A stretch of 64,000 nt of DNA, taken from assembly GCF_017603825.1 (NCBI RefSeq), contig NZ_CP072014.1:1488001-1552000 (forward strand), read 5' to 3'. Origin of the DNA: Arthrobacter crystallopoietes (lineage in GTDB: Bacteria > Actinomycetota > Actinomycetes > Actinomycetales > Micrococcaceae). Made by a program: the position numbers and the translations under genes. Below, one piece after another: positions 25,241 to 57,234 of the stretch (its first letter is position 1; every line of letters begins with the position of its first letter). The notes beneath the pieces are model-generated. The model had not been told where the DNA came from, made no database searches, and was given only the letters and a program-made list of their open reading frames with translations.

Positions 25241-25269
25241 TTGACAGGGACCAGCAGTGCGGGTAAATT
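25241..25269 (+). promoter_or_regulatory. rRNA operon 1 promoter P2
   Basis: TTGACA (25241-25246), 17 bases, TAAATT (25264-25269). The -35 is a perfect consensus and lies in sequence unique to the first operon. The -10 lies just inside the repeated module, which begins at about 25260. In the other copies the -10 reads TAACTT, a single A-to-C change. Confidence 0.7.
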
Positions 25270-25371
25270 TGAAAAGTTGCTCCGGAGCGATGGAGGGCCT
25301 TGAAGAAGGGTCCGACTGGTGCCGGGTGCTCCTGTTGTTTGAGAACTCAATAGTGTGCCAAGTTTGTTGAT

Positions 25372-25389
25372 ACCAATTTTTTTATTGGT
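25372..25389 (+). other. Leader hairpin with variable poly-T loop
   Basis: ACCAAT (25372-25377) and ATTGGT (25384-25389) form a perfect 6-bp stem around a loop made only of T. The loop has six T in operons 1 and 3 and five in operons 2, 4 and 5. This is the only length polymorphism seen in the array. It lies between the 16S processing stem and the 16S 5' end. Confidence 0.6.
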
Positions 25390-25512
25390 TGAATTATTGT
25401 CGTGGGGCACCGCCTCCGTGGTGTTTCCGCGATGTTTTTTAGCCTGGTTTGAATTTAGTGCAGTGCTGGTTCCCGTTTTCCCGGGGGCCGGTGTTGTGTC
25501 TGTTAGTAAACA

Positions 25513-27037
25513 TTAACGGAGAGTTTGATCCTGGCTCAGGACGAACGCTGGCGGCGTGCTTAACACATGCAAGTCGAACGATGATCCGGTGCTTGCACCG
25601 GGGATTAGTGGCGAACGGGTGAGTAACACGTGAGTAACCTGCCCTTGACTCTGGGATAAGCCTGGGAAACCGGGTCTAATACCGGATACGACCTTTCACC
25701 GCATGGTGGTTGGTGGAAAGATTTTTTGGTTTTGGATGGACTCGCGGCCTATCAGCTTGTTGGTGAGGTAATGGCTCACCAAGGCGACGACGGGTAGCCG
25801 GCCTGAGAGGGTGACCGGCCACACTGGGACTGAGACACGGCCCAGACTCCTACGGGAGGCAGCAGTGGGGAATATTGCACAATGGGCGAAAGCCTGATGC
25901 AGCGACGCCGCGTGAGGGATGACGGCCTTCGGGTTGTAAACCTCTTTCAGCAGGGAAGAAGCGAAAGTGACGGTACCTGCAGAAGAAGCGCCGGCTAACT
26001 ACGTGCCAGCAGCCGCGGTAATACGTAGGGCGCAAGCGTTGTCCGGAATTATTGGGCGTAAAGAGCTCGTAGGCGGTTTGTCGCGTCTGCTGTGAAAGCC
26101 CGGGGCTCAACCCCGGGTCTGCAGTGGGTACGGGCAGACTAGAGTGCAGTAGGGGAGACTGGAATTCCTGGTGTAGCGGTGAAATGCGCAGATATCAGGA
26201 GGAACACCGATGGCGAAGGCAGGTCTCTGGGCTGTAACTGACGCTGAGGAGCGAAAGCATGGGGAGCGAACAGGATTAGATACCCTGGTAGTCCATGCCG
26301 TAAACGTTGGGCACTAGGTGTGGGGGACATTCCACGTTTTCCGCGCCGTAGCTAACGCATTAAGTGCCCCGCCTGGGGAGTACGGCCGCAAGGCTAAAAC
26401 TCAAAGGAATTGACGGGGGCCCGCACAAGCGGCGGAGCATGCGGATTAATTCGATGCAACGCGAAGAACCTTACCAAGGCTTGACATGGACCGGACCGCC
26501 GCAGAAATGCGGTTTCCCTTCGGGGCTGGTTTACAGGTGGTGCATGGTTGTCGTCAGCTCGTGTCGTGAGATGTTGGGTTAAGTCCCGCAACGAGCGCAA
26601 CCCTCGTTCTATGTTGCCAGCGCGTTATGGCGGGGACTCATAGGAGACTGCCGGGGTCAACTCGGAGGAAGGTGGGGACGACGTCAAATCATCATGCCCC
26701 TTATGTCTTGGGCTTCACGCATGCTACAATGGCCGGTACAAAGGGTTGCGATACTGTGAGGTGGAGCTAATCCCAAAAAGCCGGTCTCAGTTCGGATTGA
26801 GGTCTGCAACTCGACCTCATGAAGTCGGAGTCGCTAGTAATCGCAGATCAGCAACGCTGCGGTGAATACGTTCCCGGGCCTTGTACACACCGCCCGTCAA
26901 GTCACGAAAGTTGGTAACACCCGAAGCCGGTGGCCTAACCCCTTGTGGGAGGGAGCCGTCGAAGGTGGGACCGGCGATTGGGACTAAGTCGTAACAAGGT
27001 AGCCGTACCGGAAGGTGCGGCTGGATCACCTCCTTTC
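25513..27037 (+). rRNA. rrs: 16S ribosomal RNA, operon 1
   Basis: The 5' universal primer site AGAGTTTGATCCTGGCTCAG is at 25520-25539. GTGCCAGCAGCCGCGGTAA, the 900-region GAATTGACGGGGGCCCGCAC and the 3' anti-Shine-Dalgarno GGATCACCTCCTT near 27023-27035 are all present. The ends are set by alignment to E. coli numbering and may be off by a few bases. Signature segments resemble Arthrobacter. Confidence 0.97.
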
Positions 27038-27494
27038 TAAGGAGCGCCTCAAATTTAGCGGAACCTTCCCGAGTGTTGGTTGTGCGGTTTGCAGGAGAGC
27101 CCATTGCGCAGGCGTTTGTTCTGCGGTGGGTGCTCGAGGGTGGAATATCAATGGATAGATGGTCTTTTGGCGGTTTCCATGCCAGTACGGTGTCCTTTCG
27201 GGGGTGCCTGGAACGTGTGGGGGTTGTCCGGGGGGTTGTTGTTTGGCACACTGTTGGGTCCTGAGGCAACAGGGACCGGCCGTTCATGGGCCGGTGTTTG
27301 TTTGTTTCTGGTTTCCTGCGCAGTCCGGGTCCGGGCCACGGTGAATACGTGGTGCGGGGATGGGTGCGACGGGGTTGTTGTTTGAGAACTACATAGTGGA
27401 CGCGAGCATCTTATAAAGAAGCAATTTTGATGAACCTGGATCTGTTTTGGATCTGTGGTTCTCTCGATATTAAATGCTGATTTTGATCTTTTGT
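27038..27494 (+). other. 16S-23S internal transcribed spacer, no tRNA
   Basis: The 457-bp spacer contains no recognisable tRNA gene, as is common in this family. It carries the right arm of the 16S stem (27242-27262) and the left arm of the 23S stem (27386-27405). A GC hairpin, GACCGGCC with GGCCGGTG, lies near 27281-27297. The block GTTGTTTGAGAACT at 27377-27390 repeats the leader's 25334-25347. The same spacer recurs in all five operons. Confidence 0.85.
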
Positions 27495-56600: not shown

Positions 56601-56828
56601 CCTCTGGTGTGTCAGTTGTACTGCCAAGTGCATCGCTGATTAGCTACGTTCGGATTGGATAACCGCTGAAAGCATCTAAGCGGGAAGCCGGCTTCAAGAT
56701 GAGATTTCCATACACCCTCGAGGTGTGGGAGGCCCCCAGCCAGACCACTGGGTTGATAGGCCGGATGTGGAAGCAGGGACTAAAGACCTGTGAAGCTGAC
56801 CGGTACTAATAGGCCGATAACTTACACC
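53688..56828 (+). rRNA. rrl: 23S ribosomal RNA, operon 5
   Basis: Copy shifted by 26193 bases from operon 1. Confidence 0.96.
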
Positions 56829-57034
56829 ACACACTTCCCTGGCCGCCGAACCGACTTCAAACGGTTCCCGGCAACATACAGGGGAAGGAAAAGATACGTG
56901 CATCGCGTCCACTATGTGGTTCCCGGACAACAACCGTCCGCAGGAACACACAATTGCATACAGTCCAACCATGAACTGATGTAACCACAGGTTTCACCCC
57001 CAGCCCGCGGAACCGGGCCCGGAGGGTGGCAAGG

Positions 57035-57153
57035 GTTACGGCGGTCATAGCGTGGGGGAAACGCCCGGTCCCATTCCGAACCCGGAAGCTAAGACCCACA
57101 GCGCCGATGGTACTGCACCCGGGAGGGTGTGGGAGAGTAGGTCACCGCCGGAC
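57035..57153 (+). rRNA. rrf: 5S ribosomal RNA, operon 5
   Basis: Copy shifted by 26193 bases; starts GTTACGGCGG at 57035. Confidence 0.95.
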
Positions 57154-57164
57154 ATCTTTTGAGC

Positions 57165-57199
57165 GTGAAGGGCTCCACCATGACGGTGGAGCCCTTCAC
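57165..57199 (+). terminator. Terminator after 5S, operon 5 (end of array)
   Basis: The same 15-bp stem. Repeat homology ends eight bases later, at 57207, where unique chromosomal sequence begins. Confidence 0.8.
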
Positions 57200-57234
57200 C
57201 CATTTAAACGGCAAATGAGGTAGGTCGACCCCGA

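Follow-up and report, generated by a model that had tools for sequence, protein, structure and literature searches.

Five ribosomal RNA operons assembled head to tail at the glgB locus of Arthrobacter crystallopoietes: a probable tandem array homogenised by recombination

The DNA analysed in this study is a stretch of 64 kb (the window) of Arthrobacter crystallopoietes, corresponding to positions 1,488,001-1,552,000 of a genome assembled as one contig of 4,381,539 bp (G000 in our comparisons). Within the window, a series of ribosomal RNA (rRNA) genes lies between two protein-coding genes of the + strand. The left border is a maltokinase-GlgB fusion gene (21246..25061; called glgB below), in which Pfam recognized the domains Mak_N_cap, GlgB_N, CBM_48, Alpha-amylase, and Alpha-amylase_C. 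The right border is a gene for a START-like protein (57247..57729; AHSA1, PF08327 in Pfam). Between them, from 25,513 to 57,153, Rfam placed genes for 16S, 23S, and 5S rRNA, five of each, all of which are full length and on the + strand. That is, five complete 16S-23S-5S operons form a head-to-tail cluster, in which operons of the same direction are separated by spacer DNA only. No tRNA gene was found by ARAGORN across the 64-kb window.

The first operon (copy 1) consists of a 16S gene at 25513..27036 (RF00177), a 23S gene at 27495..30637 (RF02541), and a 5S gene at 30844..30960 (RF00001). It is followed by spacer 1 (30961..32060), which extends over 1,100 bp from the end of the 5S gene to the next 16S gene. 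Copy 2 (32061..37508; 16S 32061-33584, 23S 34043-37185, 5S 37392-37508) is the same as copy 1, and the spacer behind it (spacer 2, 37509..38609) is 1,101 bp long, with one extra T in the T-run of the leader. Copy 3 occupies 38610..44057 (16S 38610-40133, 23S 40592-43734, 5S 43941-44057) and is followed by spacer 3 (44058..45157). Copy 4 occupies 45158..50605 (16S 45158-46681, 23S 47140-50282, 5S 50489-50605) and is followed by spacer 4 (50606..51705). Copy 5 is located at 51706..57153 (16S 51706-53229, 23S 53688-56830, 5S 57037-57153).

The distances from one 16S gene to the next are 6548, 6549, 6548, and 6548 bp. A sequence-only reading of this DNA had described five same-direction units with a period of 6548/6549 bp between 25,260 and 57,207, and our Rfam placement and letter comparison bore this out. 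The leader of copy 1 matches the spacer from 25,260 on (25260..25512, + strand; 99.2% over 253 bp), and the DNA upstream of 25,260 showed no match to the interior spacer. The repeat ends at 57,207, which is 54 bp past the last 5S gene and is the end of the last copy of the terminator segment (57154..57207, + strand). The stretch of 5,448 bp from 16S to 5S is letter-identical in all five operons, so that the units can be called identical, as the same reading had done, as far as the operons are concerned; the four complete units differ by the single T in the leader T-run. The spacers, which it had called short, are 1,100-1,101 bp each. A five-operon repeat of this kind cannot be due to chance.

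Each spacer begins with a hairpin, continues with about 500 bp of variable, apparently non-coding DNA, and ends in a conserved region of about 550 bp that contains the promoter-like sites and the leader. The hairpin behind the first 5S gene is located at 30972..31006 (+ strand) and has a 15-bp stem without a T-run. Further copies are found on the same strand at 37520-37554, 44069-44103, 50617-50651, and 57165-57199, and each copy matches its own reverse complement. The calculated folding energy is -35.8 kcal/mol (z -7.4). A scan for terminators with a T-run did not report this 5S-distal hairpin, and the matches of that scan were at the level of shuffled sequence. The hairpin may function as a transcription terminator or as a processing signal.

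Promoter-like sites were found on the + strand in front of copy 1 and in every spacer. Copy 1 has a distal site (TTTACA-17-TATAGT, 25121..25149) and a proximal site (TTGACA-17-TAAATT, 25241..25269), both of which were reported by both of the methods used and are nearer to the consensus than the interior sites. Boxes similar to the distal site precede the glgB-proximal operon in the four genomes G001, G060, G104, and G298. The interior units have a distal site (TTGCAG-17-TAATGT; 31613..31641 in spacer 1, -448 from 16S) and a proximal site (TTGCGA-17-TAACTT; 31790..31818, -271 from 16S). A scan with a strict consensus reported neither of the two, and its single match in the spacer is another site at 31,916. 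Thus, the view that every unit has its own promoters and terminator agrees with the presence of promoter-like sites and a terminator-like hairpin in the sequence, with the reservation that the hairpin is without a T-run.

The interior distal site sits inside an element, GTGTAATGT..TTC..AG.CGCCGC, about 430 bp before the 16S gene. We searched for this element with up to 7 mismatches allowed in 24 positions, and its background rate was one match in 21 kb. The element precedes 15 of the 16 second or later operon copies at the glgB locus of the genomes compared (the miss is G131), and none of the 15 first, glgB-proximal copies. It also precedes the dispersed operons that were read in G000, G001, G009, and G069, and because of this it has the appearance of an rRNA promoter in general use in the family. 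From this distribution, the interior unit looks like a carrier of the usual rRNA promoter of the family, and copy 1 like a carrier of a promoter typical of the glgB locus. We had also considered a common ancestry of all tandem spacers across genera, in which the promoter region can be aligned; this idea was dropped because the dispersed operons carry the element too. The locus can be regarded as corresponding across genera because the flanks match, and not because of the spacer.

We then compared the spacer with other genomes, namely 10 congeneric genomes including G000, and 197 genomes of the family (E 1e-12, best two candidates per genome). Near full-length matches were obtained in 2 of the 10 congeneric genomes, G000 and G001, and among the best two candidates of each family genome only G000 and G001 matched. 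G001, a sister species assembled in three contigs, has an array between the same genes, of which glgB is 94% and the START region 90% identical to those of G000 at the DNA level. Its main contig contains four operons with a period of 6545 bp. Copy 1 of this species differs from its interior copies by two substitutions, and an additional T is found in the internal transcribed spacer ITS1 of the fourth operon. Because of these differences, the copies in G001 are not blind duplicates.

The comparison of the two species clarified how the repeats have changed. Within each genome the copies are almost the same; a single T is the only difference among the four spacers of G000, and the three complete units of G001 show either two substitutions or no difference. 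When the two species are compared, spacer identity is 88%, and an alignment of 853 bp contains 78 substitutions and 41 gap columns. No difference occurs in the initial 60 bp behind 5S; up to about position 550 each 50-bp segment is then 62-94% identical, and beyond it 92-100%. ITS1 differs by 19 substitutions and 5 gap columns, and ITS2 by 20 and 7, respectively; the rRNA genes together show 4 substitutions. Since the spacers are identical or nearly so within each genome and have diverged between the species, we judge from these alignments that the array evolves in concert, as would be expected from recombination. The locus and the layout agree in both species, and therefore a common ancestral array is the simplest reading. 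If the array is ancestral, the identity of its copies would mean that recombination, by crossing over or by conversion, outpaces mutation. Alternatively, the array would have grown independently in each species from an ancestral pair of operons, and repeated recombination would be needed likewise.

The variable part of the spacer, about 500 bp, contains long open reading frames (ORFs) of 184-235 amino acids, which we examined as candidate genes. At the protein level they match between the species with 38-53% identity over the main length and up to 79% in short pieces. They were rejected because 13 of the 14 interspecies indels are not multiples of three and break the frames; these ORFs are probably not genes.

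The sequence-only reading had also allowed that the array might be an assembly artefact. In this case the assembler would have multiplied one or two real operons into five. Several features agree with this explanation. The units are identical, the 32-kb span is beyond the length of many reads, and the one-base homopolymer difference in the leader T-runs is of the sort that polishing noise leaves. Misassembled rRNA loci have in addition been described in reports on Streptococcus iniae (PMC9176272) and Streptococcus pyogenes SF370 (PMC11737162). The data on G001 argue against it. This genome was assembled separately, and it shows the matching structure with a different spacer sequence; the two substitutions of its copy 1 indicate that real differences exist among its copies. 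Tandem runs of two or three operons also occur at the glgB locus in other genera, as described below. Assemblers would, moreover, lose identical repeats more often than add them, and a stray contig of G001 fits such a loss. Thus, because a separately assembled sister species has the corresponding array, the same flanking genes, and spacers of 88% identity, we consider an artefact very unlikely.

The stray contig (C2; 25,865 bp) consists of array sequence only and contains four spacers and parts of five consecutive operons. Its three whole units show 77, 17, and 37 differences from the unit of the main contig. All eight readings at two marker sites (four at each) gave the interior type, the first partial operon included. 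As C2 is thus wholly of the interior type, and as copy 1 has to be added to it, G001 at face value has at least six operons, compared with four in the main contig; this conclusion appears strong but not final. C2 is probably stray long-read sequence from an array that was under-counted in the main contig. We also considered C2 as an excised circle. It is about 290 bp of 23S short of four whole periods, and this idea found no support. As a sign of a copy difference within one strain, C2 is suggestive only.

By the parallel with G001, the five operons of G000 may be a lower bound as well. A real array whose true number is other than five, either because it was collapsed or because it is mixed in the culture, would be compatible with a genuine array. 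The four operons of the G001 main contig and the at least six implied by C2 are in favor of this possibility, as is the coexistence of tandem and single rRNA forms in S. iniae QMA0248 (PMC9176272). In contrast, the assembly of G000 is one contig and has no stray rRNA contig. Taken comprehensively, a number other than five is quite possible and falls somewhat short of an even chance.

To place the array in its genome, we listed the 16S genes of G000. There are six, namely the five in the array and one at 2,880,312, so that the rRNA operons elsewhere in the genome amount to one solitary operon. This operon differs from the array operons at 2 positions in 5,448. The dnaA gene is located at 921,982 on the + strand, 0.59 Mb away from the array. 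Of 20 stretches of 19 kb that were sampled for GC skew, 11 lie in the interval 0.96-3.25 Mb, and 9 of these showed a positive skew; among the 9 outside this interval, 8 showed a negative one. From this skew pattern and the position of dnaA, the array, and the solitary operon likewise, are very probably co-directional with replication. The solitary operon lies 1.96 Mb from dnaA, near the likely terminus, which is an odd place for an rRNA operon. Downstream of it, G000 and G001 match in several overlapping registers (L020 12308-12931 against L059 14146-14887), like an internally repetitive gene.

We next consider the glgB locus in the family. The C-terminal part of glgB was searched in 57 genomes, of which 46 matched at E 1e-80 (47 with G000). 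In 38 of the 47, a 16S gene lies on the same strand 427-1105 bp downstream of the glgB match; of the remaining genomes, 4 have a 16S gene at 2-11 kb and 5 have none within 20 kb. Close tandem operons are found at glgB in 6 of the 38: G000 (5), G001 (4), G104 (3), and G060, G298, and G131 (2 each), where the counts of G000 and G001 are from full 16S listings, beyond the 20-kb look-ahead of the survey. G297 (3) and G192 (2) also have runs at glgB, and both were chosen for having a run. In the other-genus runs at glgB the units are near-identical where they were compared. These runs resemble the array of G000 in their locus, as judged by glgB and mostly also by the START-like gene, but they have fewer units, and their spacers differ in sequence outside the promoter region. 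In 11 of the 14 other genomes read (the exceptions are G032, G131, and G054), and also in G192, the last operon is followed by the START-like gene. Thus, rRNA operons occur widely in the interval between glgB and the START-like gene in the family Micrococcaceae, one in many genera and two or three in others.

A second operon at a larger distance is found 8.2-9.1 kb on in five genomes of genus g32 and in G032, and 9.16 kb on, across the record start, in G039. Between the two operons of g32 lies a gene for a protein of 649-697 amino acids (L065:9035-11128, L066:8912-10861), in which Pfam recognized a thioester domain (PF08341) and DUF5979 in G134 and G172; G148 has a related ORF at the corresponding place (stretch L075). 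The gene between the two operons of G032 is presumably an IS110-like transposase.

A tree of glgB (16 rows, two of them partial, midpoint root) contains a clade (100/99) of G060, G104, G298, G000, G001, G134, G148, G172, and the draft genome G009. The first eight of these have at least two operons each at the locus. On the other side of the tree, G109, G054, G360, G243, and G281 have one operon, and G131 and G032 have two. Since loci with multiple operons occur on both sides, the tree suggests more than one gain or loss of operons at this locus. In G009, clpC, an rRNA operon, and the START-like gene follow one another at about 2.79-2.80 Mb of contig C1, and glgB is at the edge of another contig; this arrangement may be due to a rearrangement between rRNA loci or to a mis-join at an rRNA repeat. 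We also considered, and rejected, that the array unit arose from an operon linked to clpC like that of G009. The DNA behind clpC in G000 and G001 has no spacer match, and no rRNA gene is near it.

We also tallied the longest run of operons (spacing below 7.5 kb) in the 82 genomes whose 16S positions were listed. It was 1 in 65 genomes, 2 in 11, 3 in 4, 4 in 1 (the main contig of G001), and 5 in 1 (G000). This sample is non-random, as 13 genomes of one batch of 26 were chosen for two close-lying top matches and 20 of another 24 are from three genera; it contains a few drafts and some partial 16S matches, and runs across the record start are uncounted. The total number of rRNA operons per genome ranges from 1 to 8, and six is ordinary for the family. 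Because of this, we think that the array concentrates the operons and does not raise their number.

The ordinary total allows the explanation that the array is a static by-product, that is, that duplications were kept by drift after the loss of dispersed operons and have no dosage role. Runs of two or three operons in other members of the family agree with this explanation, including runs in stretches without a glgB match. Two genomes of genus g24 (G254 and G283) have runs of three close operons with no glgB match in the stretches read, and tandem runs therefore seem to arise at other loci in this genus too. Against it, identity within the array in the face of about 12% spacer divergence between the species calls for recombination since the two species separated, or for rapid turnover, and the promoter part of the spacer is conserved. 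Neither of these two points, however, demonstrates a dosage role. We therefore regard a static by-product as nearly as likely to be right as wrong.

From the above results, we think it highly probable that this is a genuine tandem array of rRNA operons at a conserved locus of the form glgB-(rrn)n-START-like gene, and that the array was grown and homogenised by recombination. Its history may have been as follows. The operon nearest to glgB would have been joined, on its downstream side, by a second operon with the usual rRNA promoter of the family. Homologous recombination, acting on the direct repeats of 6.5 kb, would then add or remove units and keep them identical. Transcription, running the same way as replication, would probably start at the promoters of each unit and end at the hairpin of that unit. 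The likely effect would be a locus at which the rRNA gene dosage shifts in single steps; that selection exploits such steps is a guess. Expansion and contraction by recombination, which had been proposed from the sequence alone, are supported indirectly by the copy number at the syntenic locus, which lies between 1 and 5 in the genomes compared (for G001, 4 in the main contig, or at least 6 with C2), and by the homogenised spacers within each species, and the copy number may change within a strain as well. A stronger proposal is that most rRNA genes of this lineage form a homogenised rDNA-like array, in which RecA-dependent recombination would let the number of units drift within populations; this number would set the rRNA dosage and differ between cells of one culture. 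This proposal we hold to be somewhat doubtful.

Several points weigh against a genuine array that acts in this manner. The eight congeneric genomes other than G000 and G001 are drafts (20-350 contigs), of which two have no spacer match and six have short weak matches only. Five is the count of the assembler, and the interior copies have no unique internal marker; C2 is rich in errors and could be partly chimeric. The interior promoter-like sites, missed by the strict scan, depart more from the consensus than those of copy 1, and therefore the units may differ in activity. Finally, we infer copy-number change within a strain, transcription of each unit, and a dosage benefit, and the total number of operons is ordinary.

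The neighboring genes are briefly described here. Among named genomes, the START-like protein is nearest to that of Arthrobacter sp. VKM Ac-2550 and SF27 (97% identical), followed by that of Arthrobacter hankyongi (57%); Arthrobacter is placed in Micrococcaceae by NCBI. The glgB gene is the last of an alpha-glucan gene cluster (14620-25061) with a phosphorylase gene (- strand), GlgE, an alpha-amylase-family gene, and the maltokinase-GlgB fusion; we take the alpha-amylase-family gene to be TreS-like. On the other side of the array, an ABC ATPase gene with MalK-type domains lies at 61305-62468 (- strand), and at its start there is an msiK RNA motif (RF01747, 67.6 bits; 62453-62512, - strand).

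Eukaryotic rDNA arrays consist of head-to-tail units with a promoter and a terminator in the spacer, and they undergo concerted evolution. The array of G000 resembles them in its head-to-tail repeats, in the promoter-like and terminator-like sites of its spacer, and in its concerted evolution. They have tens to hundreds of units of their own kind, whereas here there are five in the assembly, each of which is a bacterial 16S-23S-5S operon. The description as a eukaryote-style array thus holds for layout and concerted evolution only, and not for the number of units.

Among bacteria, the rrnI-rrnH-rrnG operons of Bacillus subtilis lie close together in the same direction at the oriC region, and their inversion is harmful in rich medium (PMC12448304). 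They are likewise several rRNA operons clustered in one direction; they are three operons near oriC, compared with five operons here, without tRNA genes and 0.59 Mb away from dnaA. In S. iniae QMA0248 / 89353, an unstable tandem rRNA repeat, tandem and single forms in cultures of one strain, and a stray rRNA contig in the assembly that was at first discarded have been reported (PMC9176272). The head-to-tail units and the stray contig, here in G001, are alike. In S. iniae the units number two, are about 7 kb long, and include tRNA genes, whereas the five units here are without tRNA genes and are homogenised over species time. 'Candidatus Symbiobacter mobilis' is tandem likewise, with two operons only, and a cited title calls tandem operons a mark of its bacterial cluster (PMC4053972). 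Assembly errors of rRNA are on record for S. pyogenes SF370 (PMC11737162), and the cereus group is cited among rRNA precedents (PMC6208641). We found no report of the array of G000, or of any bacterium with five or more identical rRNA operons in tandem, in a literature search that left most subscription journals outside. We regard the array as an rRNA cluster of a known kind, longer than others and homogenised, and its exact count in G000 and in G001 may differ from that of the assemblies.

If C2 is sound, the main contig of G001 is short of at least two units. Assemblies may therefore give wrong rRNA copy numbers for such genomes, and these numbers serve to correct 16S community counts. A natural array of identical units, at a syntenic locus with 1, 2, 3, or 5 operons in relatives, lends itself to comparative work and to experiments on rRNA dosage, on unequal recombination, and on concerted evolution in bacteria. 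The finding bears on how bacteria set the number of their rRNA genes and why the operons are usually dispersed.

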